This document shows, one piece after another, positions 3,751 through 35,430 of a stretch of 64,000 nucleotides of DNA; the first letter of the stretch is position 1, and the number at the start of each line of letters is the position of its first letter. The notes under the pieces were generated by a model that did not search any database, was not told the origin of the DNA, and saw nothing but the letters and a program-made list of their open reading frames with translations. The translations under genes were made by a program, and so were the position numbers. Source of the DNA: Marmoricola sp. (lineage in GTDB: Bacteria > Actinomycetota > Actinomycetes > Propionibacteriales > Nocardioidaceae); contig JAOPYE010000009.1 of NCBI GenBank assembly GCA_025964775.1, positions 1-64,000 of the forward strand. The letters are read 5' to 3'.

Positions 3751-4860
3751 TCAGGCCTCTCGTACGTCGGGCTGGACGAAGGGTGGCTTGGTCACCACGA
3801 ACACCTCGGAGCGACCCCGGACGTCCACGCTGACCTCGGCACCCTCGGTGACCAAGGCGTCGATCAGGGCCAGCGCCACGCCCTTCTTCAGCGTCGGGGA
3901 GAACGTACCCGAGGTGATCTCGCCGACCGTCGCGTCGCCCTGGCGCACGCTCATGTGTGGCCTCGCGATGCCACGACCGTCCGCGACCAGGCCGCGCAGC
4001 ACGACCTTGGGACCTGCCTCTCGCTCGACCGAGAGCGGGTCCTTGCCCCAGAACGCGTCTTTGGCCCAGCCGATCGCCCAGCCGAGCCGCGCCTGGACCG
4101 GGGAGATGTCCAGGCTGATGTCCTGGCCGTGCAGCGGGTAGCCCATCTCGGTGCGCAACGTGTCGCGGGCACCCAGCCCGCACGCCTGGATCCCGTACGC
4201 CGCCCCGGCCGCGACCAGTGCGTCCCACAGGGCTCCGGCGACCTCGTTCGGGGCAATCAGCTCGTAGCCACGCTCACCGGTGTACCCGGTCCGGCACACG
4301 ACCACGTCCACGCCCTCGAACGGCGCCTCGACGAAGGACATGTAGTCAAATGACGCCGTGTCGTGACCGGTCGGCAGGCCGAGTGCGTCCAGCACCTCGT
4401 CCGACCTGGTGCCCTGGACCGCCAGGACCGCGTGGGTCTCGTGGTGGTCGGTCAGCGTCAGACCGTCCGGTGCGGCAGCCTGCAGCCGTCGGAGCACCTC
4501 GGCGGTGTTCGCCGCGTTCGGAACCAGCAGCAGGTGATCCTCGTCGTGCAGGTAGACGATCAGGTCGTCGACGACGCCACCGGTCTGGTCGTCACAGCAC
4601 AACGTGTACTGCGCCTTGCCGTTCTCGATGCGACCCAGGTCGTTGGTCAGGCACGCGTTGATGAAGTCGCGTGCACCGGCGCCGCGGACGATCACCTTGC
4701 CGAGGTGGCTGACGTCGAAGATGCCCACCGACGTCCGGACGGCGGTGTGCTCCTTGACCACCCCGACGTACTCCAGCGGCATCTCCCAACCACCGAACTC
4801 GGAGAACTTCGCCCCCAGGGCGACGTGTCGATCGTGCAGGACTGACTGCTTGAGGGCCAT
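3751..4860 (-). CDS. gcvT: Aminomethyltransferase, glycine cleavage T protein
   Basis: GcvT transfers the methylene group from aminomethyl-lipoyl H-protein to tetrahydrofolate, releasing ammonia, as part of glycine cleavage. The 369-residue length is normal. Family features include [20 protein letters not shown] at the start, the FDVSHLGKV strand, [13 protein letters not shown] and the C-terminal barrel with [20 protein letters not shown]. It lacks gcvH and gcvP neighbours, but the lipoamide dehydrogenase and lipoate synthesis genes lie within 13 kb on the other strand. The ATG at 4860 begins [12 protein letters not shown]. The small gene at 3499-3747 follows it directly. Confidence 0.95.
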
Positions 4861-4995
4861 GCCGGAAAGTTACCGCAGCAGATCGAGCGGGTTGGCGGAC
4901 GCCCTCCGATCTGGATCGTGATCCTCGCTCCCCTCGTCAACGAGTTCTCGGCCACTCGGCCTCGAGCAAGCTCGGGCACTCGATAGCCTCGACTC

Positions 4996-6486
4996 GTGAC
5001 GACCTACACCCTGCGCAAGGCATCGGCCGAGAAGGTCCGCACCGACGTGGTCGTCATCGGCATCACGGCCGGCAAGGCCGGAGCACTCGTCGCGGCCCCG
5101 GGAGGCGAGGCCGTCGCCGCCGCGTATGGCAGGACCTTCGCGCCGCTGCTGGCCTCGCTCGGCTTCTCCGGGACGTTCGGCGACATCGCCAAGGTGCCTA
5201 CCAACGGCCACGTGAAAGCAGCCCAGCTGCTCGTCGTCGGTCTCGGTGACACGGGCGCCGTGACCACCGAGAAGGTGCGACGTGCCGCCGGGATCGCGGC
5301 CCGCAACCTGGGCAACGCAGCCTCGGTCGCCCTCGCACTGCCGGCCGCGGAGGCGGTTGAGATCCGCGCCGTCGTGGAGGGATTCACCTCGGGCCTCTAC
5401 CGGTTCGAGGCCTTCAAGTCCGGCGAAGGGCGCGGGCGCGTGGCCGAGGTCGTCGTGATCAGCGATGGTGCCCGGCGCGCCGATGCGATCGCCGCGCTGG
5501 AGCTCGGCAGACTCCTCGCCGAGGTCACCGGCCAGGCCCGCGACTGGGTGAACACACCGCCGAACGCGCTCGTGCCGCTCCAGTTCGCCACCGAGATCCG
5601 CACCGCGGTCGAGAACAGCGCCGTCTCCTTCGAGCTGGTCACGGCGGCCCAGCTGAGGAAGCTCGGCGCCGGCGGCATACTCGGGGTCGGGATGGGATCG
5701 GAGAACCCGCCGTGTCTGGTCAAGCTGACCTGGCGTCCGGACGACGCCGTGGGTTCGGTCGCCCTGGTCGGCAAGGGCATCACCTATGACTCCGGCGGCC
5801 TGACCATCAAGCCGGGCGGCTCGATGGCCCACATGAAGTCCGACATGGCCGGCGCGGCTGCCGTGACTGCCGCGATCCGGGCGATCGCCGCGCTCGAGCT
5901 CCCCGTCGCCGTCACGGCGTACCTGCCGCTGGCCGAGAACATGATCAGCGGCACCGCCATGCGCCCCGGCGACGTGCTGACCAGCCTGTCGGGTCGCACG
6001 ATCGAGGTCTTCAACACCGACGCCGAAGGCAGGCTCGTGCTCGCCGATGCCCTGACGATGGCTGTGCGCGACGAGCCGGACGTCATCCTCAACGTCGCGA
6101 CCCTGACGGGTCCGTGCGTCGTCGCCCTCGGTGACCGGATCGCCGGCCTCTTCGGGGACGACACGACCGTGGCCGAGGTCGAGGCAGCGGCCGAACGCAC
6201 CGGCGAGCTGTTCTGGCACCTGCCGATCCCGCCCGAACAGCGCAGCACTGTCCGAACCGCGTCGAAGGTCGCCGATCTGCTCCAGCACGACTGGGTCCGC
6301 TGGGGCTCGGCGCTCTACGCTGCGGCCTTCCTCGAGGTCTTCGTCGAGGACGTTCCGTGGGCCCACTTCGACATCGCCGGCCCGGCCTGGAACGGGGGCG
6401 GACCGTGGGGGCACGTCCCGAGCGGTGCGACCGGCTTCTCGATCAGCACTCTGGTCGACCTGGTCAGCGCCCGCGCGCACTCCTGA
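4996..6486 (+). CDS. pepA: Leucyl aminopeptidase, M17 family (PepA)
   Basis: This cytosolic dinuclear-metal aminopeptidase removes N-terminal residues from peptides. It has 496 residues, normal for the family. The C-terminal catalytic domain carries GKGITYDSGGL (residues 260-270), with metal and catalytic lysine positions, and the diagnostic NTDAEGRL (340-347), followed by LADALTMA. The variable N-terminal domain covers about 1-165. The GTG start at 4996 is supported by the domain beginning at once. The gene is divergent from gcvT, with 135 bases between them. Some M17 enzymes also bind DNA, but nothing here tests that. Confidence 0.94.
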   Translation: MTTYTLRKASAEKVRTDVVVIGITAGKAGALVAAPGGEAVAAAYGRTFAPLLASLGFSGTFGDIAKVPTNGHVKAAQLLVVGLGDTGAVTTEKVRRAAGIAARNLGNAASVALALPAAEAVEIRAVVEGFTSGLYRFEAFKSGEGRGRVAEVVVISDGARRADAIAALELGRLLAEVTGQARDWVNTPPNALVPLQFATEIRTAVENSAVSFELVTAAQLRKLGAGGILGVGMGSENPPCLVKLTWRPDDAVGSVALVGKGITYDSGGLTIKPGGSMAHMKSDMAGAAAVTAAIRAIAALELPVAVTAYLPLAENMISGTAMRPGDVLTSLSGRTIEVFNTDAEGRLVLADALTMAVRDEPDVILNVATLTGPCVVALGDRIAGLFGDDTTVAEVEAAAERTGELFWHLPIPPEQRSTVRTASKVADLLQHDWVRWGSALYAAAFLEVFVEDVPWAHFDIAGPAWNGGGPWGHVPSGATGFSISTLVDLVSARAHS

Positions 6487-26742: not shown

Positions 26743-27069
26743 TCAGGTCACCGCGGCCAGCAAGGTCTGGGAGGCCGTGAGCCCGGCACGAGCTGCGCTG
26801 GTGGGCCGGCCCCGGCTCCCCCATCGCGGTGTCACGATGTAGGTGCGCCCCGCGATGATCAGGGCTACCGCGCGGGCGCCCGGAATCGGGATCGGCCTGG
26901 CGGTCGTGGCACTGACGTGCGCAGAATCGATCAGGTCGCCCTTGGTGCCGAGCAGCGTGATCGAGCCGTTGCGCCGGATGATCACCCATCCGTGCCTTGT
27001 CAGAGGACGGACGCCGCGGGTGATCTGACATTCGTCGAAGACCACGTCGGTCTGAAAGCTGTGTCCCAC
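26743..27069 (-). CDS. Small protein, last gene of the sigma-fusion cluster
   Basis: This is a 108-residue protein from the GTG at 27069, only 3 bases after the previous stop codon. It has two Gly-rich strand-turn repeats (HGWVIIRRNGSITLLGTKGD and ALIIAGRTYIVTPRWG), suggesting a small all-beta fold. I see no signal peptide or membrane helix. I recognise no family. Its place at the end of a tight minus-strand gene row implies coexpression with the sigma-fusion gene, but function is unknown. Confidence 0.6.
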   Translation of the reverse strand: MGHSFQTDVVFDECQITRGVRPLTRHGWVIIRRNGSITLLGTKGDLIDSAHVSATTARPIPIPGARAVALIIAGRTYIVTPRWGSRGRPTSAARAGLTASQTLLAAVT

Positions 27070-27072
27070 GGG

Positions 27073-27393
27073 CTACCGGGCCGCGTCACCCGCGTGGATC
27101 GGGCACAGGTGGTACCCGATCGGCGGAAACACCGGCTCGACCGAGAACCGCAAGCGGGACTCCGACCCGGACTCGATGGCTGCCTCGTAGCGCGCCGCCG
27201 CCGAGGCAGCATCGCGTGACGGATACGGTCCGGAGTACGACGAACTGCCTGAGGCAGTGTCGATGCACGCGACGAGGTGCGGCAGCGCCGCCTCCCGATC
27301 GAGGTCTTCCCGCTCGGCCAGCGCGGCCATCGCTGCCATCACTTCGACACGTTCGCGCCCGCCCATGCCCCGCCTGCCTTTCGCCGTGGTCAT
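27073..27393 (-). CDS. Small GPY-motif protein in the sigma-fusion cluster
   Basis: This 106-residue protein starts at the ATG at 27393 (MTTAKGRRGMGGRER); a later ATG in the same segment is possible. A helix MAAMAALAEREDLDREAALP precedes LPHLVACIDTASGSSSYSGP, followed by a helix rich in Ala. The pattern LP-x-[IL]V ... SG ... [ST]GPY ... A is shared with the 79-residue protein at 28833-29072, so they look like paralogues. The segment ending FPPIGYHLCPIH adds Cys and His. Function unknown. It begins 29 bases after the sigma-fusion stop. Confidence 0.6.
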   Translation of the reverse strand: MTTAKGRRGMGGRERVEVMAAMAALAEREDLDREAALPHLVACIDTASGSSSYSGPYPSRDAASAAARYEAAIESGSESRLRFSVEPVFPPIGYHLCPIHAGDAAR

Positions 27394-27421
27394 CGGGTTG
27401 ACGGATCGGTCCACCGATGGA

Positions 27422-28840
27422 TTACGACCCGGTCGCCACAGGCGCGGGAACCCCGACACCGACAGTTGCGGAGCCTTGTGAATCCACCGCGTAGATCCGG
27501 CCACCCATGGGTCGTCGGAGGTCGGCCACCGACACGTCGAAGGAGAACACCGGACTGCTGCCGCCGAGGCACTCCTCTGCGACGGTGCCGGGCGCGGTCG
27601 GCAGGGTTCGACACGTCCAGGCGCTGGCCGTCCTCAATCGGAACCTGCTGGCATTGGAGATCCGGGCGGTGAGCCTGACCTGTCTGGTCGTGCGGTTGAG
27701 GACGGTCGTGATGCGGGAGTCCACGGTCTGTGACGTGCGCACCGTGACCACGTCGGGTCCGACGAGCCTGAGCGGCGGCAAGAGACGAGGCAGCGCCGGC
27801 GGCCGGACCGAGGGGAGGACCGGACGAGCCGTCAAGGCGGTTGGACCAGGTATCAGCGACGGCCCCGGGGTCGGACGCGGAGTGGGCCGCAACGGCGGCG
27901 CGGACAGGGTCGGAGTCGGAGCCGGAGCGACCGGAGCAGTCCTCGCGGCGGACGGACGTTCGGACGCGGTGTGGTGCACCCAGGACGCGACCGCAGTCGT
28001 CGCCACGGCGACCGCGATCACTGCCGCTGTGGCTTTCACCAGCAAACCGTGCAGCGCGGACTGCACCACGCCCGTGCCGGCGTGGGCGCCGGGTACCAGT
28101 CCCAGCAGCGCGACCGGGGCCAGGAGCGCGCCCAGGTTGCTGTTGATGCTCTCGAGATCGATGACCGCGCCAGGACAGAACTCGCAGACGGCGAGGTGCT
28201 CTTCGAGCTCCGCGGTCCGCGCCGGCGTGAGCTCGTTGCGGACGTAGCGCGGTATCTGGGGAGCAAATTTCAGGCACGCCGGGTCGGTCGACACCGCGAG
28301 GTGCTCGGCGAGGTAGGCCTGCCGGAACCCTTCCCGCGCCCGCCAGCTCAACACACCCACCGCGTTGGCCTTGACGCCGAACCGGGCGGCGACGGTCTCC
28401 AGCGATTCGTCGAGCACCTCGGTGTACCAGAGGACCTCGCGCCACCGGTCCGGCAGGGACGCGAACGCGCGGTTGACCACCGTGGACTCGGCCTGGTCGG
28501 CCGCGTGGTCCCGGACGAATTCGTTTCCGGTGCCGTAGGTGGAGACGTCATCGACCAGCTCTTCACGACGGTGCCGCCGCAGGTCGTCGATCATCACGTT
28601 GCGGATCGAGGTCAGGAGGTAGGAGTTGAAGTTCGAGTCCGGACCTCGCCCGTCGTCGAGCAGCGCCATGATCTTGATGAACGCTTCGTTGACCAGATCG
28701 CCCGCACGGGCGGGGTCACCGGTCAACGTGGTCGCGAACCGGAGTCCCGAGGCGCTGTAGCGCTCGTACAGCACGGCGTACGCATCGCGATCACCGGCAC
28801 GACTGCGCGCGATGAGTTCCTGGTCGGAATCCTCAGGCAT
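27422..28840 (-). CDS. ECF sigma factor fused to ZAS-like, transmembrane and exported domains
   Basis: The ATG at 28840 gives 472 residues. Sigma region 2 covers about 20-92 (DPARAGDLVNEAFIKI, NSYLLTSIRNVMIDDLRRHR) and region 4 about 120-180 (SLPDRWREVLWYTEVLDESL). Next comes an anti-sigma-like zinc finger with His215, Cys219 and Cys222 in the H-x3-C-x2-C order. A membrane helix lies near 266-288, then a Pro/Thr-rich linker (300-345) and a beta-rich tail to the end, predicted outside the cell. So sigma factor and anti-sigma elements share one chain, and release would need proteolysis or a conformational switch. Comparable fusions are described among actinobacterial ECF groups such as ECF52, from memory. 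The start overlaps the preceding 79-residue gene by 8 bases. Confidence 0.88.
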   Translation of the reverse strand: MPEDSDQELIARSRAGDRDAYAVLYERYSASGLRFATTLTGDPARAGDLVNEAFIKIMALLDDGRGPDSNFNSYLLTSIRNVMIDDLRRHRREELVDDVSTYGTGNEFVRDHAADQAESTVVNRAFASLPDRWREVLWYTEVLDESLETVAARFGVKANAVGVLSWRAREGFRQAYLAEHLAVSTDPACLKFAPQIPRYVRNELTPARTAELEEHLAVCEFCPGAVIDLESINSNLGALLAPVALLGLVPGAHAGTGVVQSALHGLLVKATAAVIAVAVATTAVASWVHHTASERPSAARTAPVAPAPTPTLSAPPLRPTPRPTPGPSLIPGPTALTARPVLPSVRPPALPRLLPPLRLVGPDVVTVRTSQTVDSRITTVLNRTTRQVRLTARISNASRFRLRTASAWTCRTLPTAPGTVAEECLGGSSPVFSFDVSVADLRRPMGGRIYAVDSQGSATVGVGVPAPVATGS

Positions 28841-29072
28841 CGTTCTCCCCCGGCGGGTGCAGCCTGGCCAGGGACGCGTCCGGGTGACGGCCTCCGGCAT
28901 CGAGCGCGTCCAGGGCGCTCAGTGCCGCGACCTCGGTCTCGTAGGGTCCCGTGTGCGACAACCGCCCCGACCTGCCATCGGCATGGACGACGATGTAGGG
29001 CAGATCCCAGTCCTGCCGGAGCAGGGAGTCGCGGACGCGCCGTACCTCGGAGTCCGGGATGACCCTCACCAC
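28833..29072 (-). CDS. Small GPY-motif protein translationally coupled to the sigma-fusion gene
   Basis: This 79-residue protein from the GTG at 29072 begins MVRVIPDSEVRRVRDSLL, then WDLPYIVVHADGRSGRLSHT and GPYETEVAALSALDAL. It shares the LP-x-[IL]V and [ST]GPY-x5-A spacing with the 106-residue protein at 27073-27393. Its start overlaps the end of the upstream surface-protein gene (GTGGTGA), and its stop lies 8 bases inside the sigma-fusion start. Both overlaps favour coupled translation and near-fixed stoichiometry. Candidate roles are a cytoplasmic partner or inhibitor of the sigma domain; nothing in the sequence proves this. Confidence 0.65.
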   Translation of the reverse strand: MVRVIPDSEVRRVRDSLLRQDWDLPYIVVHADGRSGRLSHTGPYETEVAALSALDALDAGGRHPDASLARLHPPGENDA

Positions 29073-30061
29073 GACCGGCGCCCGGTCGGTGGTCGAGCTG
29101 CTGTCGCCCCTCGGTGCGGCGCCCCCAGCCGCACCGCGGGTGCGCCCACGACCAGACCGAGGGCGACGTCAGCCCTGGTGATCCGGTACGGCGCAGAAGG
29201 CTTGCACCCCATCGACCGGCCCGGCTCGAGGGTGCGCGCAGGACAGCTCACGGCGATCCCGCTCCGGGTCAGGAGCCCGTCGTCGACCGTGACACCGGTC
29301 AGCGCCACGTCGCCGGTGTTGACGACCACGAACTCGTAGAAGATCTCGTCGTTGGCGTCGAGGTACCCGTCGCGGTTGACGTCGACCGTCCTGCTGACGC
29401 GCTTGTCGAACCTGAGCGACGGATGGGTCACGACCGGGGTCACCGTGACGTCGGCGTGCGCGTCGTTGTTGGTCGCCGTCGTGGTGGTGTCGGTGCCCGG
29501 AGCCGGAATCACGAGCGGGTTCGTCTCTGCGGCGTCGCCCGGCGCAGGACTCATCCATGCCTCGGTGCGCAGCAATCCGGACGTGCCTGCATCGATCGTG
29601 GCGACGACCCCGATCGGCGCGCCGTCAGTGCCGGCCACCAGACCCGCGGCAGCGACACAGGTGATCTCGGCTGCGGCACGGATTCCCGACCCGGTCCTTG
29701 GCGAGAGCTCGCCGCAGCCGTACCCGGTGCCGGCCGCCGAGCGCACGGTCATCCCCTGGGGCACCTCTTCGGTGACCGACCAGCCCGCGGCGGCGTCGCC
29801 CGGACCTTCGTTGTGCGGGACGAGGGTGAAGGCGACCGCCTGTCCCGGATGCACCGGACCGACCGTGAGCAACGTCGTGGTCAGGCTGAGATCGATCATC
29901 GGTGTCGCCGAATCCTCTGCCCCAGCCGGGGCGGCCACACCCAGCCCGTAGCCCACACCTGCGGCGACCGCCATCACGCCGAGCAGCACCCTGGCAAGGT
30001 CCGCGGCCCGGGAAGCTGGCGGTTGGAGGACCACCTTCCCGGACCGGGAGTCCTGGCGCAT
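29066..30061 (-). CDS. Secreted DUF11-type surface protein
   Basis: This 331-residue protein starts at the ATG at 30061, which overlaps the stop of the small membrane gene (TGATG). A signal or membrane segment (LARVLLGVMAVAAGVGYGLG) ends in PAGAED. Two DUF11-like beta domains follow (about 55-160 and 235-310). The second opens with a calcium-loop-like DVNRDGYLDANDE and has FVVVNTGDVALTGVTVDDG. The last 25 residues are Arg/Pro-rich without LPxTG or a membrane anchor, so surface attachment is uncertain. The tail runs into the start of the next gene. Confidence 0.75.
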   Translation of the reverse strand: MRQDSRSGKVVLQPPASRAADLARVLLGVMAVAAGVGYGLGVAAPAGAEDSATPMIDLSLTTTLLTVGPVHPGQAVAFTLVPHNEGPGDAAAGWSVTEEVPQGMTVRSAAGTGYGCGELSPRTGSGIRAAAEITCVAAAGLVAGTDGAPIGVVATIDAGTSGLLRTEAWMSPAPGDAAETNPLVIPAPGTDTTTTATNNDAHADVTVTPVVTHPSLRFDKRVSRTVDVNRDGYLDANDEIFYEFVVVNTGDVALTGVTVDDGLLTRSGIAVSCPARTLEPGRSMGCKPSAPYRITRADVALGLVVGAPAVRLGAPHRGATAARPPTGRRSW

Positions 30062-30216
30062 CACGCAATCCTGAAGAGTGCGAACGTGACGACGATCAAA
30101 CCGACCGCGGCGACGGCCACCCCGACGCGCATGCTGCGCGCACCCAGGTCGACCGGACCTCGGTGCCTGGGGATGACCTTGGGCACCGGCTGCTCGGTGC
30201 GTAGTAAGCGGACCAC
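30061..30216 (-). CDS. 51-residue membrane peptide, first gene of the sigma-fusion cluster
   Basis: From the GTG at 30216 this short frame reads MVRLLRTEQPVPKVIPRHRG, then a polar stretch, then one hydrophobic helix (VGVAVAAVGLIVVTFALF) and the end RIA. Its TGA stop shares its final base with the A of the next gene's ATG (TGATG). The spacing, overlap and clear polarity (basic outside the helix on the N side) support a real gene too small for routine detection. It is predicted to be a single-span membrane protein with the N-terminus in the cytoplasm. Function unknown. Confidence 0.6.
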   Translation of the reverse strand: MVRLLRTEQPVPKVIPRHRGPVDLGARSMRVGVAVAAVGLIVVTFALFRIA

Positions 30217-30258
30217 GCCACACTGACGAAACTGAGGTCAACTTGATTACGCGGCGAA

Positions 30259-31358: not shown

Positions 31359-34300
31359 ATGTTCACCACGTCTCTTCGTCGCGGCGCGATCGCCATCGCC
31401 GCATCCAGCGCCTTGGCCGTGGTGACGCTCGCCGCTCCGGCGCAAGCGACCACGAACGACCAGGGATCGGCAGCGTCGATCATCGTGGCCGGTCCTTCCG
31501 GCGGCCTCGCTGCCGCATTCGCAGGATCACCGACCTCGTTGCTCCAGGGCCTGCTCTGTCCGATCGTGACAGCCCTGAGCAACACCACGACCAACATCCC
31601 GGTCGTCGGGCCGGTGGTGGACCAGCTGCCGAACGTCGTCTGCGCGCTCAGCGTGCTCGGGTACGTCTACAAGACCACGTACCTGCCACCGACCGGGCCA
31701 CCGATCGTGCGCTACACCAGGGCACTCGCCGGCGTTCCGACCCTGCTCGACGTCGACGGCAACGGGTTCACCGACTTCCTCGGAACGCTGACCCTCAGCC
31801 TGAGCCTGAACGGCATCACCCTCAACGTCAGCCGGACCGGATTCCCGGTGACCGGGCGGGTCAGCATCGAGGCGATCGCGATCGACCCTGCGACAGCGAA
31901 CACCTACGTCGGCTTCGGCGAGGACGGTACGGCAGTCGGTACGGCGCAGAACTGGTCCACCACGGTGAGCGTGCTCGGATTCTCGGGAAGCACGGCAGAC
32001 ATCGGACTGAGCCTGAAGACCAGCCAACCGCAGAGTTCCCTGGCCGCCATCGGGGAGCTGTTCTCAGGCGCGAACGCCGATGCCCCCGACCACGTCTACC
32101 GCGGAAATGCGTCCTTCGCCCCTGTACCCGCCGCCTTCACGACCGAGATCCGGGCCTCGCAGGGACGCCAGGAAGCGATCGTCACGAGTCCCCCCACGAC
32201 GCTCACGGCCAAGGTCGACGTGCTCTCGCCAGGACGCGCCCAGAACATCGGCCTGACCGCCAACCAGCTGCCCTCGAGCATCGACGTCGTGCACACGACC
32301 AGCGGTACGAGCGACACGACCACCTACGACGCCTCCGGCTCGATCGCCCAGCTCAACGGCACCTACCGCGACACCGTCAGTGGCAACATCGCCACGGACG
32401 CTGCCCTGGATGCCTGGGGGGTGCCAGCGCACATCCGGTTCGACCAGACCGGTGCCACCACGAGTGTCGGCGCGACCAGCGGACAGTTCGACCGGGTCCA
32501 GGCCCGGTTCGCCCAGGGAACGGCTGCCGATCCGCTCGACCCCGCAACGACTCCGTTCGCGCGGTACCACCGCACGTCGAGCACGGCGTTCACCGCCGGC
32601 GTGCAGCTCTCGAACCTGAAATCGGTGTCGATCAACCAGTCCGCGCCCTACGGAGGTGAACTCGTCTTCGGCACTGCACCGGCGCTCTTCCCGTTCACTG
32701 CCCAGGACGACACCAGCGGCCTGCACCTCGACGGCTCACTGTCCAACCTGCCGGCCGACACGACCGTCGGCGTCGACCTCACCAACGGCCTGGTGACCTT
32801 CAACGGCCACGGCACCGGGATCGACGAGATCAAGATCCACGCCACCCGTCCGGCTCCGTTCTTCGCACGGGCCACCCGACTCGACGCGACCCTGGACAAC
32901 CTGCCCGCCTCCGAGACCGTCAACGTGGCGCAGTCCAACGGCGGCGTCACCGCCAGTGCCAGCGCTCCCCTGGGTGCCCTGAGCCTGTTGGCCAGTGACG
33001 GGAGCGACGCCCCCGCCATCTCCGGGTCGGCGGCATCGTACGAGGACACCTCCAGCCTGTACCGGGCGTTCGTCCGGATCAGCGGCCTCGAAGGACTGAG
33101 CTTCCAGGCCAACCCGGTGATCGCCTCGATGCAGACCGCGACTCCGCAGGTGCTCACGGTCCACGGCAACCTGAGCGGCCTGACCTTCGACGGCACGATC
33201 GACAAGCTGCCGGCGAACCTGACGTTCTCGATGCAGCCCGGAGCCGGCGGGTCCAACGTCGTCGACTACAACAGCCACGGTTCGGTCATCGACAAGATCA
33301 CTGCCAGCGGAAGCGGACTGCCGGCACCCACCGGGATGCCGAACTTCGAGGCCGAGATCGACCAGCTGCCGAGCCACCTGACGGTGACGTTGCCGGCGAC
33401 CACCGGCAACGTCGTCTTCGACGCTCACGGCGACCACATCGGACGTGTCTACGCACAGGCTTGGGGTGGCACCAAAGCGAGCCTCGCGGCCAACCAGCAG
33501 ACGGTCGAGTACGTCGATGGCCAGCACATCGCGGCGAACCTGCTGCAGGTCGGCAGCGCGCAAGTGAGTACCACCGCGTCGCCGTTCCACCTCCAGTACG
33601 ACATCAGTTCGTCGCCCCTGGACTTCGAGTACGTGGCGGCTGATGCCAAGTTCCTGAGGGGCACGATCTCCAATCCCACGCCCGCAACGGTCGACTTCAA
33701 CACCTCGAACAAGACCAGCGTGCACTACCGCGCCACCACCAACACGCAGATCAACTCGATCACCCTGAAGACCGATCTGGCCGGCGGCTACATCGACGCC
33801 GACCTGCAGAACATCGCGCCGGACGTCCAGGTCTGCTTCTCGAGCACGAACAAGGCCTGCAAGCCCGGCTTCGTTCCCGCGAACACCCTGACCACCACCG
33901 GCGGCGACACCTACACCATGCCGGCGGCACTCTTCGACTTCTCGCTGACGCCGACGGATCTCAGCGGCGCCCAGTGGCCCAACCGGTTCAGGTTGGACGG
34001 CACCTACTGCTTCAACGAGTCGGACCCGACCACCTGTCTCAACGGGTCCAACCACAAGCAGCGGATCACGATGGACGACCTCGAGTTCGGCAAGGTGGCC
34101 GTGGGCGCCGGCTTCCAGAGCGACGGCTGCACCGCCTGTACGGCGGGCCGGGCGTACGCCTACTTCGACACGAACAACACGCTGATCAGCGGGGACGTGA
34201 AGTACTTCAACGAGGGTGACAGCGACGCGTTCGTGCATTACCACACCGACAGCAACAGCAGCGGGATCGAGGCGCAGAACAAGTTGCTGTTCGTGCAGTA

Positions 34301-34445
34301 CTGCATCGTCTGCCTGAACGAAACCAACCTCACGACGGTGAGTGGAGGCTCGTTCTCCTGCGTCGCGGATCCACACCTCGACATCTCCATCCCGGTCTTC
34401 GACGACATCGATGTGCTGAGCGGTAGCTTCATCCACTTCTGTTGA
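31359..34445 (+). CDS. Large secreted beta-rich repeat protein
   Basis: This 1028-residue protein has a classical signal peptide cleaved after AQA (about residue 30). The body repeats a pattern of a DNLPA- or DKLPA-type turn, then a strand ending in F-x(2)-HG, then I-x(2)-I, several times in the region 460-720. Earlier a calcium-loop-like VDGNGFTDFLG occurs. The last 200 residues are cysteine-rich (CFSSTNKACKPGF, CFNESDPTTC, DGCTACTAG, CIVC, SFIHFC), suggesting disulfides. No LPxTG, membrane anchor or known domain was seen. Likely an exported structural or binding protein. It is divergent from the pseudouridine synthase and monocistronic as far as seen. Confidence 0.8.
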   Translation: MFTTSLRRGAIAIAASSALAVVTLAAPAQATTNDQGSAASIIVAGPSGGLAAAFAGSPTSLLQGLLCPIVTALSNTTTNIPVVGPVVDQLPNVVCALSVLGYVYKTTYLPPTGPPIVRYTRALAGVPTLLDVDGNGFTDFLGTLTLSLSLNGITLNVSRTGFPVTGRVSIEAIAIDPATANTYVGFGEDGTAVGTAQNWSTTVSVLGFSGSTADIGLSLKTSQPQSSLAAIGELFSGANADAPDHVYRGNASFAPVPAAFTTEIRASQGRQEAIVTSPPTTLTAKVDVLSPGRAQNIGLTANQLPSSIDVVHTTSGTSDTTTYDASGSIAQLNGTYRDTVSGNIATDAALDAWGVPAHIRFDQTGATTSVGATSGQFDRVQARFAQGTAADPLDPATTPFARYHRTSSTAFTAGVQLSNLKSVSINQSAPYGGELVFGTAPALFPFTAQDDTSGLHLDGSLSNLPADTTVGVDLTNGLVTFNGHGTGIDEIKIHATRPAPFFARATRLDATLDNLPASETVNVAQSNGGVTASASAPLGALSLLASDGSDAPAISGSAASYEDTSSLYRAFVRISGLEGLSFQANPVIASMQTATPQVLTVHGNLSGLTFDGTIDKLPANLTFSMQPGAGGSNVVDYNSHGSVIDKITASGSGLPAPTGMPNFEAEIDQLPSHLTVTLPATTGNVVFDAHGDHIGRVYAQAWGGTKASLAANQQTVEYVDGQHIAANLLQVGSAQVSTTASPFHLQYDISSSPLDFEYVAADAKFLRGTISNPTPATVDFNTSNKTSVHYRATTNTQINSITLKTDLAGGYIDADLQNIAPDVQVCFSSTNKACKPGFVPANTLTTTGGDTYTMPAALFDFSLTPTDLSGAQWPNRFRLDGTYCFNESDPTTCLNGSNHKQRITMDDLEFGKVAVGAGFQSDGCTACTAGRAYAYFDTNNTLISGDVKYFNEGDSDAFVHYHTDSNSSGIEAQNKLLFVQYCIVCLNETNLTTVSGGSFSCVADPHLDISIPVFDDIDVLSGSFIHFC

Positions 34446-34515: not shown

Positions 34516-35430
34516 GTGACCAATCGTGTGCAGGACCTCCTCGGCATCCAGATCCCGATCGTCCAGGCGCCGATGACCTTCATCGCCAACGCCGCTCTCG
34601 CCGTGGCGGTCTCGGAGGCGGGCGGGATGGGTGTCATCGAAACGCTCTCGCCCCAGGGGCGCGAGGACCTTGCGCGGGTCCGGGAGCTGACCAGCGCGCC
34701 GGTGGGTGCCAACCTGATGATCCAGGGCTGGAAGAAGGATCCCTCGATCGTCGAGGTGATCGCCGAGGCAGGCATCACCTACGTCGCCACGTCCGCGGGC
34801 GACCCGGCGCTGTTCACCGACCGTCTCCACGACGCCGGCATGACGGTGTTCCACGTGGTCGGCTCCTTGCGGGCGGCGCAGAAGGCCGTCGACGCGGGCG
34901 TCGACGGGCTGGTCGTCGAAGGCGTCGAAGGCGGTGGCTTCAAGGGAGCCCTCGGCGCGTCGACCATGGTGCTGCTTCCGCTGATCGCCGGACAGATCGA
35001 CCTGCCGATCATCGCAGCCGGCGGGATCTGCGACGCGACCTCGATGGCAGCGGCGTTCGTCCTCGGCGCTGAGGGAGTCCAGATGGGCACCCGGATGCTC
35101 GCGACCACCGAGGCCGTCGTCCACCAGCACTTCAAGGACGCGATCACGGCGGCCGACGACTCCGGCACGGTGCTGCTCAGCGTGCCCGGCAACCCGACGA
35201 TGCGGGTCCTGCGCAACCAGCTCACCGAGACGGTGGACGCCGCGGCCGGCGTCAATCTCCTGGAGCGGATCACCGACCTCTACTTCGGCGGCGAGATGGA
35301 CGCCAGCGTCGCCAACACCGGACAGGTGTCGGCCCGGATCGACGAGGTCCTGCCCGTCGCGGCGGTGATAGAAGCGATGTGGGCCGGCTGCACCGCCGCG
35401 CTCGACGCCGGACGGGCGCGACTCGGCTGA
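34516..35430 (+). CDS. Nitronate monooxygenase-like FMN protein
   Basis: This 304-residue TIM-barrel flavoprotein of the 2-nitropropane dioxygenase family starts at the GTG at 34516. Characteristic pieces are QIPIVQAPMTFIANAALAVA, GGMGVIETLSP, VEGVEGGGFKGALGASTMVL and IIAAGGICDATSMAAAFVLG, the last binding FMN phosphate. The HxxD catalytic pattern of well-studied class I enzymes is not obvious to me, so it may act on other substrates or be an enoyl-reductase-like relative. The gene is separated by 70 bases from the surface-protein gene and is convergent with the dehalogenase. Confidence 0.85.
   Translation: MTNRVQDLLGIQIPIVQAPMTFIANAALAVAVSEAGGMGVIETLSPQGREDLARVRELTSAPVGANLMIQGWKKDPSIVEVIAEAGITYVATSAGDPALFTDRLHDAGMTVFHVVGSLRAAQKAVDAGVDGLVVEGVEGGGFKGALGASTMVLLPLIAGQIDLPIIAAGGICDATSMAAAFVLGAEGVQMGTRMLATTEAVVHQHFKDAITAADDSGTVLLSVPGNPTMRVLRNQLTETVDAAAGVNLLERITDLYFGGEMDASVANTGQVSARIDEVLPVAAVIEAMWAGCTAALDAGRARLG

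Follow-up and report, generated by a model that had tools for sequence, protein, structure and literature searches.

A membrane-tethered ECF sigma-factor fusion beside a stalk-type exported protein and GPY small proteins in Marmoricola sp.: a candidate adhesion module

Extended ECF sigma factors and the fusion of the window

The classification of ECF sigma factors is reportedly that of Casas-Pastor et al. in 2021. ECF fusions anchored in the membrane are generally regarded as sensors complete within one protein, and regulated proteolysis has been proposed for ECF52, as far as the accessible portion of the source goes. The closest described systems are the actinobacterial ECF52, ECF48 and ECF53 (e.g., SCO4117 of Streptomyces coelicolor), in which, according to the accessible portions of two sources, an ECF sigma factor is joined to a zinc finger, a transmembrane helix, a Pro-rich linker and an exported domain (PMC5826349, PMC8999054). 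The accessible portion of the latter also describes ECF42, a C-terminally extended ECF with a regular small YCII-type neighbour thought to be regulatory, and CfrX, a small soluble putative anti-sigma factor of the envelope-tied SigX (ECF102) (PMC8999054). DUF11 and DUF7507, or CLIPPER and CLIPPER_2, are reported from the stalks of fibrillar adhesins in the accessible portion of a further source (PMC12617251).

The window analysed here is a stretch of 64,000 nucleotides of Marmoricola sp. (contig JAOPYE010000009.1, positions 1 to 64,000). A minus-strand gene at 27422..28840 encodes a sigma fusion of 472 residues, with its sigma domain at residues 1-180 and its ZAS segment at 185-230, in which Pfam recognises Sigma70_r2 (E-value 4e-13) and zf-HC2 (2e-6; 28.2 bits with a cut-off of 22.2), both above cut-off. 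The protein also matches TIGR02937 above cut-off, and regions 2 and 4 are its only sigma regions, as in group 4, with Sigma70_r4_2 scoring 17.9 bits, under the cut-off of 25.7. Among 19 aligned fusions, region 4 is recognised in 18 (E<=0.01), and zf-HC2 (ZAS) follows it, again in 18. The zinc-finger motif HxxxCxxC is read directly as HLAVCEFC, the hydropathy peaks at 2.09 over 19 residues, and the alignment fits a transmembrane helix, a Pro-rich linker and an exported domain. Domains, hydropathy and alignment thus bear out an earlier note on this DNA, which had seen sigma factor, zinc finger, helix and exported domain in a single polypeptide; that ECF fusions with C-terminal extensions are already known, as it also said, agrees with the accessible portions of PMC8999054 and PMC5826349.

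Judged by architecture, the window sigma is of a known kind, ECF48/52/53-like. Unlike ECF52 proper (SCO4117), it shows no carbohydrate-binding module, none being found in the window sigma (Pfam E<=1) or in the 19 fusions (E<=0.01), and the exported domain of the 19 fusions matches no Pfam family (E<=0.01). Another difference is that neither adhesin neighbours nor the small proteins termed GPY below are mentioned for ECF52, ECF48 and ECF53 in the accessible portions of PMC5826349 and PMC8999054. In a quick tree, the sigmas of the window, of the relative genome G004 and of loci L172 and L173 cluster together with that of L038 (SH-aLRT 100). The last, a sister of the window sigma, is found without GPY, and its downstream gene encodes an M4-peptidase and no adhesin.

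The six-gene cluster and its conservation

The fusion gene is the fourth of six minus-strand genes at 26743-30216, all recovered by a purpose-written codon-usage gene caller that was trained via a codon-position filter. The first encodes a single-helix membrane peptide of 51 residues with a GTG start (30061..30216) and overlaps by 1 base (30061) the gene for an exported protein of 331 residues (29066..30061), whose Pfam domains are one DUF11 and one DUF7507. The latter overlaps by 7 bases (29066-29072) the gene for GPY79, the upstream GPY small protein of 79 residues (28833..29072), which in turn overlaps the sigma gene by 8 bases (28833-28840). Downstream of the fusion lie the gene for GPY97, the second GPY small protein, of 97 residues (27073..27366), and, after a gap of 3 bases (27070-27072), the gene for a 108-residue protein of an unnamed family (26743..27069), for which the gene caller chose a shorter, 80-residue start. 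Both GPY frames are also recognised by the family profile. Given these overlaps, the genes may be co-translated.

All six genes are found in G004 in identical order and with identical overlaps, the sigmas being 93% identical. Between the two genomes, dS ranges from 0.10 to 0.28 (nine genes), indicating that they are not near-copies, and dN/dS is 0.07 for the 51-residue peptide (5 synonymous vs 1 non-synonymous difference), 0.43 for the DUF11 protein, 0.15 for GPY79, 0.26 for the sigma fusion, 0.43 for GPY97 and 0.10 for the 108-residue protein, next to 0.06-0.12 for three flanking genes. Given the conservation in G004, the overlapping frames cannot be put down to chance in a GC-rich sequence, and the six-gene cluster is confirmed as real. 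One start had to be corrected: G004 has one extra base between 27393, the earlier start of a 106-residue GPY, and the next in-frame ATG at 27366, so that only the 97-residue form is in frame in both genomes and the start is placed at 27366. The gap between sigma and the downstream GPY is 55 bases from this start and 28 from 27393. The six frames of the earlier note therefore stand, while its start of the second GPY gene and its 29-base gap do not. By eye, no convincing ECF promoter is seen in the 42-base gap before the 51-residue gene.

The outer genes of the cluster have distributions of their own. The 51-residue peptide is present in two of 24 genomes of the genus; the 108-residue protein, which matches neither Pfam nor NCBIfam, is likewise present in two of these 24, and in nine of 197 genomes of the family, in four genera. 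At five other loci of this protein in other genera (five of the seven other places, the two weakest of nine being left out), no sigma or GPY gene lies within about 6 kb. The gene order of the small proteins is thus kept in G004 and is not kept where relatives of the 108-residue protein occur without sigma or GPY nearby, and the six genes do not make up one conserved set, as had been supposed. Both the 51-residue peptide and the 108-residue protein appear to be passengers, and the latter, for which membership of a module is rejected for now, is probably a neighbour.

Could the whole cluster be a chance neighbourhood at a variable site? The site does vary: in G021, the orthologues of the P450, rluA-like and 34516-35430 genes are adjacent, with no six-gene cluster between them, and the 108-residue family has different neighbours elsewhere. 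Against this, the frames are under purifying selection, G004 keeps their order and L172 and L173 keep part of it, and in 19 of 29 GPY clusters at 50% identity some member lies no more than 1 kb from a sigma gene, a count that depends on the threshold (3 clusters at 40% identity, 1 at 35%). Binomial figures on these clusters assume cluster independence, which fails. We regard chance neighbourhood as very improbable, and for the four core genes it is already disfavoured.

The GPY family and its genomic context

The GPY small-protein family is what is new here. GPY79 and GPY97 are 31% identical and detect each other weakly with phmmer (E-values of about 0.002-0.003), and a single profile detects both, in agreement with the proposal that they are paralogues. 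Besides its G004 counterpart, GPY79 has its best phmmer relatives in L172 (2e-8) and, in a near tie, in the solo GPY of L082 (2.6e-8); when 14 sigma-linked GPYs are compared by alignment distance, that of L163 is closest to it, followed by that of L172, which has a DUF7507 locus on one side and a fusion sigma on the other. The AlphaFold2 model of GPY97 has the order alpha-beta-beta-alpha-beta (mean pLDDT 76, pTM 0.57), with the GP(Y/F) motif preceding the second helix. Both window GPYs are hydrophilic (19-residue peaks of 0.68 and 0.28) and therefore probably cytoplasmic.

Scans of Pfam (no match above cut-off for eight GPYs, two of the window and six relatives), PHROGs (none among 24 members) and NCBIfam (one weak match among the 24, none for the two window GPYs) leave GPY without a usable library match, and on these scans we reject the reading of GPY as an already known family. 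A profile search of solved structures gave nothing credible (best E-value 0.15). Whereas ECF42 has a YCII-type neighbour, no YCII match was found by Pfam in the two window GPYs (E<=1) or in six relatives, and GPY has its own secondary-structure order with the GP(Y/F) motif; in this comparison, 'DGPF' and 'SGPF' may be alike. GPY also differs from zinc anti-sigma factors of the ZAS/RskA type: RskA_N is found only at an E-value of 0.79 for GPY79, no HxxxCxxC occurs in the GPYs of eight loci, and GPY79 is cysteine-free by reading. By the description of CfrX in the accessible portion of PMC8999054, GPY would be alike in kind, with no homology claimed. No known anti-sigma signature is found in GPY, an observation that speaks against a brake. 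Among the matches listed, GPY is restricted to one bacterial family, which we infer to be Nocardioidaceae-like. No published description of a GPY-like sigma partner or of a link between sigma and DUF11 was found in the accessible sources, subscription literature lying mostly outside the search.

Among the matches listed, an ECF sigma gene lies within 1 kb of 31 of 62 GPY genes, against a background of about 2.8%, as estimated by hand on the basis of 204 sigma-region-2 matches across five genomes. The first GPY seeds were picked near sigmas, which partly biases the counts for the window genus; in position-blind whole-genome searches of two other genera, 19 of 36 GPY places (among the matches listed) are within 1 kb of an ECF sigma gene. 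The overlap of GPY and sigma genes amounts to 4 bases at L156, L159, L171, L185 and L186, and to 8 both in the window and in G004. Their order varies: GPY is upstream by 65 bases or less in the window, L041, L159, L162, L163 and L172 (overlapping in the window and L159), divergent at L080, L086, L170 and L174, and downstream at other loci. The proposed refutation, homologous fusions without these neighbours and small frames not conserved as proteins, did not materialise, as GPY recurs beside fusions and adhesin-type genes. Strict dedication of the small partners to the fusion does not survive, GPYs being found also by plain ECF sigmas, by adhesins with no near sigma and solo; of the proposed one-polypeptide envelope-sensing system with dedicated partners, it is the fusion architecture that holds. 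Genome G016 has two GPYs with no sigma in the region inspected and a further one in divergent orientation to a plain ECF gene. At L158, its orthologue L166, L174, L086 and L080, ECF sigmas stand next to GPY with no HxxxCxxC in the genes called within four genes; at L158, what comes after the ECF gene is an AraC-type regulator, in place of pilin genes, which speaks against an adhesion module.

Several observations speak against a module: the variable order, the other 31 of the 62 GPY genes, which have no sigma gene inside 1 kb, and the lack of GPY in two sigma groups that are conserved in these genomes and at L038 and L039. Over 14 pairs, GPY and sigma co-diverge (Mantel r of 0.33; 93 of 5000 permutations), a point in favour of the module, although the weakness of this signal counts against it. 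GPY might instead be a lineage-specific protein with an unrelated job, captured repeatedly for the convenience of an autoregulated ECF promoter, and hence a regulon member and not a regulator. The solo copies, a subgroup at an oligoribonuclease-type locus (mostly with N-terminal extensions) and the weak mirror-tree signal fit such a capture, for which the 108-residue gene is a precedent of unrelated small genes joining the site. A passive downstream rider would need neither the upstream placement within 65 bases nor the divergent one, and we consider capture unlikely. We favour GPY as a putative cytoplasmic partner of the sigma factor, probably acting as its brake.

The stalk-type protein and a candidate adhesin switch

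The exported protein of the window has a signal-type N-terminus by direct reading, followed by DUF7507 (E-value 2.5e-15) and DUF11 (1e-7), both above the Pfam cut-offs, which is the make-up of a CLIPPER-type stalk. Fibrillar adhesins as described in the accessible portion of PMC12617251 share these two kinds of domain, but the window protein has only one of each, with no match to an adhesion domain or LPXTG sorting signal (Pfam E<=1) and, by reading, no hydrophobic anchor at its C-terminus; it may be a short or secreted adhesin form. Adhesin, pilin or sortase genes frequently adjoin GPY loci, the neighbours being hand-picked by eye with no random control. The order stalk protein, GPY and fusion sigma of the window and G004 is also found at L172 and L173 of another genus, with one extra small lipoprotein-like gene within it, the L173 stalk fragment and GPY having been found by reading the locus.

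These neighbours raise the possibility that GPY belongs to the adhesin side, contributing to the production, folding, export or dosage of the surface protein, with its proximity to sigma reflecting a common locus. At three loci with no sigma within 1 kb, a stalk-type gene is either the direct neighbour of GPY or separated from it by one gene: L157 (with 14 DUF7507 stretches, and a plain sigma at a distance of about 4 kb), L160 and L177 (DUF7507 and sortase). The direct 4-base overlaps, however, involve the sigma gene, no large surface protein is recognised near L041, L052, L159, L163 and L185 (neighbours by reading, no Pfam scan), and the window GPYs are hydrophilic. An adhesin-side role thus appears rather improbable to us.

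Because the arrangement of stalk, GPY and fusion recurs in related bacteria, the two small proteins would seem to be partners of a switch. We propose, with confidence somewhat short of even, that the stalk protein, GPY79, the sigma fusion and GPY97 are a member of a recurring, fast-evolving module that regulates cell-surface adhesion in Nocardioidaceae-like actinobacteria. The exported domain of the fusion would sense the cell surface while the intracellular zinc-finger segment holds the sigma domain inactive; a signal would free the sigma domain, probably via regulated proteolysis as proposed for ECF52, and the freed sigma would drive transcription of the adhesin-stalk gene as well as of its own locus. 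The GPYs would be small soluble cytoplasmic partners produced in step with sigma. Since GPY genes also adjoin ECF sigmas lacking a zinc-finger anti-sigma segment, the most economical role for GPY would be that of a second, dissociable brake, binding and inhibiting the sigma domain. It is possible, if more doubtful, that GPY represents a new class of dissociable ECF regulator (anti-sigma or co-regulator, with the alpha-beta-beta-alpha-beta order) acting whether or not a zinc-finger brake is present, and that it makes up, with the ECF-ZAS-TM fusions, a switch for adhesins and pili in Nocardioidaceae that is portable and diversifies rapidly. If true, the fused zinc finger would not be the sole control, and GPY would give studies of the activation of this sigma group a partner to test. 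Sigmas tied to isopeptide-stabilised adhesins and pilins would offer a concrete regulon for testing. As to a common promoter motif, what the regions upstream of the adhesin and sigma genes have in common at six orthologous loci is a GC-rich inverted repeat, which is not recognisable as an ECF promoter.

The six-gene cluster and its genomic site

The six minus-strand frames at 26743-30216 form a real cluster: all are present, and a codon-usage gene caller recovers six of six, although it gives the gene of the 108-residue protein a start that leaves 80 residues. The 1-, 7- and 8-base overlaps and the 3-base gap described in an earlier note are exact. Its second small GPY protein, however, has 97 residues (GPY97), not 106, with the ATG at 27366 as the start, because the relative G004, which carries the same cluster, has one extra base between the two candidate starts and only 27366 keeps the reading frame in each genome; with this start, the gap between the sigma gene and GPY97 widens from the reported 29 to 55 bases. 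Conservation of gene order, proposed as a check, is found in G004, which keeps the order and overlaps of all six genes. Between the window and G004, dN/dS is 0.07 for the 51-residue membrane peptide, 0.43 for the exported DUF11 protein, 0.15 for the 79-residue GPY79, 0.26 for the sigma fusion, 0.43 for GPY97 and 0.10 for the 108-residue protein, alongside 0.12, 0.07 and 0.06 for the flanking rluA-like, P450 and prfC genes. This makes it very probable that the small frames encode real proteins, although for the 51-residue frame the reading rests on six differences only.

Four of the six genes are members of a recurrent module. The 51-residue peptide is present in two of 24 genomes of the window's genus, as is the 108-residue protein (26743-27069), which occurs in nine of 197 genomes of the family, across four genera. 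Since five loci with its relatives outside the home genome and G004 (L199-L203) have no nearby sigma or GPY gene, the 108-residue protein probably lies outside the module; this narrows the module and leaves the link between GPY and sigma untouched. It and its relatives make up an unnamed family, whose conserved core is of the QIGKGLKPLAQHG...TPGWG type.

The home genome is 3.9 Mb. In another genome, G021, orthologues of the P450 gene, the rluA-like gene and 34516-35430 adjoin each other without the cluster, which makes this a variable site. The window also encodes, in divergent orientation to the rluA-like gene, a 1028-residue exported-type protein (31359-34445, plus strand) without a Pfam match. 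In G021 (L194) the neighbouring orthologues have neither this protein nor the cluster between them, and the two flanks of the rluA-like gene may therefore have been gained together. Just 42 bases (30217-30258), two of which differ in G004, separate the cluster from the same-strand rluA-like gene, whose promoter may drive cluster transcription.

The GPY family and its association with ECF sigma genes

GPY79 and GPY97 share 31% identity, and each picks up the other weakly in a single-sequence search (E about 0.002-0.003); relatives were found from both. Whole-genome profile search finds GPY in eight of 24 genomes of the window's genus. Searches that scored part of the candidates per genome give lower bounds: at least 14 of 197 genomes in at least three of 26 genera of the family, at least four of 394 genomes of the class, all of the window's family, and at least 23 of 215 genomes of genus g6; profile search also finds it in one of 49 of genus g26. 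No Pfam model exceeded its cut-off among eight GPYs scanned, and 24 GPYs gave no PHROGs match and one weak NCBIfam match; none of the libraries searched catalogues this putative partner family. Its consensus is PHIVxCRDxxTGxxxYxGP(F/Y), followed by a helix and FxVAPL. An AlphaFold2 model from a six-sequence input predicts an alpha-beta-beta-alpha-beta fold (mean pLDDT 76, pTM 0.57, 34 of 97 residues at pLDDT of at least 90).

Gene surroundings were read for 62 GPY genes (25 from the window's genus, 37 from g6 and g26; 59 called and three further frames at locus L173), with only 1.5 kb of flank at L112 and L122. An ECF sigma gene lies within 1 kb of 31 of the 62 (11/25 and 20/37, respectively; 19/36 of the whole-genome-search places in g6 and g26 when one L173 frame found only by locus reading is left out), and 31 have none at that distance. 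By hand estimate from the sigma density in five genomes, where region-2 matches number 30, 44, 31, 50 and 49 (about 8.6 per Mb), chance would account for about 2.8%. When GPYs are clustered at 50% identity, 19 of 29 clusters include at least one GPY within 1 kb of a sigma gene. The two genes overlap by four bases at L156, L159, L171, L185 and L186, and GPY lies upstream, downstream, on both sides or divergent. Against the association stand the 31 genes with no sigma gene at that distance, the loci L079, L081-L085 and L091, where no sigma was found in the stretches read, and the oligoribonuclease-locus subgroup described below.

A tandem pair of one plain ECF sigma and one fusion sigma, with GPY between the two or just ahead of them, occurs at L156, L162 and L165 and could represent a cascade or a decoy. 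L173 (genome G613), a region of 60-68% GC in which the gene caller fails, holds three GPY frames, a fusion sigma and, by reading, a DUF7507-type LPXTG fragment, and may be a foreign island. A GPY subgroup at L087-L090, L092, L112 and L122, mostly with N-terminal extensions, occupies a conserved locus adjoining an oligoribonuclease-like gene (named from reading) and is perhaps a vertically inherited copy.

The sigma fusion and a possible mechanism

The fusion of ECF sigma, zinc finger, helix and exported domain is of a known kind. It matches Sigma70_r2, zf-HC2 and TIGR02937, with Sigma70_r4_2 below the cut-off, and continues into a hydrophobic helix, a Pro-rich linker and an exported domain. 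Among 19 aligned fusions, zf-HC2 is found in 18 and no exported domain is recognised at E<=0.01. Sigma relatives are multi-copy within the order, with some match in 56 of 58 genomes, many being plain sigmas. A quick tree built from 40 sigma domains, 39 of them different, joins the window and G004 sigmas with those of L172 and L173, from another genus, and L038 (SH-aLRT 100; several rows including L173 are long-branched). The GPY label requires five changes on the sigma tree versus a shuffled mean of 13.1, to which near-copies contribute. In two sigma groups whose neighbourhoods are conserved, one close to aroA and one close to a ferredoxin oxidoreductase gene (both named from reading), no GPY occurs within two genes of the sigma.

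Passages of PMC8999054 present release by proteolysis as expected for ECF48/52/53 fusions; for SCO4117, passages there and in PMC5826349 state that the sigma part by itself can modulate development and that a truncated form activates its own expression. By analogy with ECF48/52/53, the exported domain would sense and the zinc-finger segment would restrain the sigma. GPY is hydrophilic and encoded beside the sigma, and in the simplest reading it would act on the sigma domain itself, because GPY genes also occur next to sigmas lacking a zinc finger; we infer this step, its sign and the regulon. At L158 and its orthologue L166, L174, L086 and L080, GPY stands beside an ECF sigma with HxxxCxxC in no called gene within four genes, and the L080 fusion (4467-5828, plus strand) has lost the zinc finger and kept the helix and exported domain. 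L080 also has a GPY gene on either side of the fusion, plus another ECF sigma, a plain one, downstream. The nearest working analogy, as far as passages of PMC8999054 describe it, is ECF42 with its YCII-type neighbour; GPY, tested against YCII, was found not to belong to it.

Surface-protein genes beside GPY and sigma

All eight large exported neighbours at seven GPY loci, picked by eye and with no random control, carry adhesin, pilin or other surface-protein domains: SdrD_B and Sortase; GEVED/DUF6923; TED and TQ; DUF7507/SpaA_3/DUF11; and SpaA/pilin. GEVED is known from surface proteins. Five further neighbours comprise DUF7507 with a sortase (L177), one rhamnosidase, one LPXTG below the cut-off and two blanks; at L158, an AraC-type regulator replaces the pilin genes of its orthologue L166.

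The DUF11 protein of the cluster combines DUF11 and DUF7507, which passages of PMC12617251 describe as fibrillar-adhesin stalk domains of the isopeptide-linked CLIPPER kind. At L172 and, by reading, at L173 the order is stalk protein, lipoprotein-like gene, GPY and fusion sigma, which mirrors the window's stalk protein, GPY79 and sigma except for the extra lipoprotein-like gene. The best phmmer relative of GPY79 outside G004 is the L172 GPY (2e-8), nearly tied with a solo GPY (2.6e-8), so the GPY comparison alone is no proof of the triad's common descent. At L161, L168, L175, L181, L183 and L184, a GC-rich inverted repeat of the type GTCACCC-N4-GGGTGTCA precedes the TED-adhesin gene, and a related form precedes the gene of the fusion sigma; the repeat is a candidate terminator or operator.
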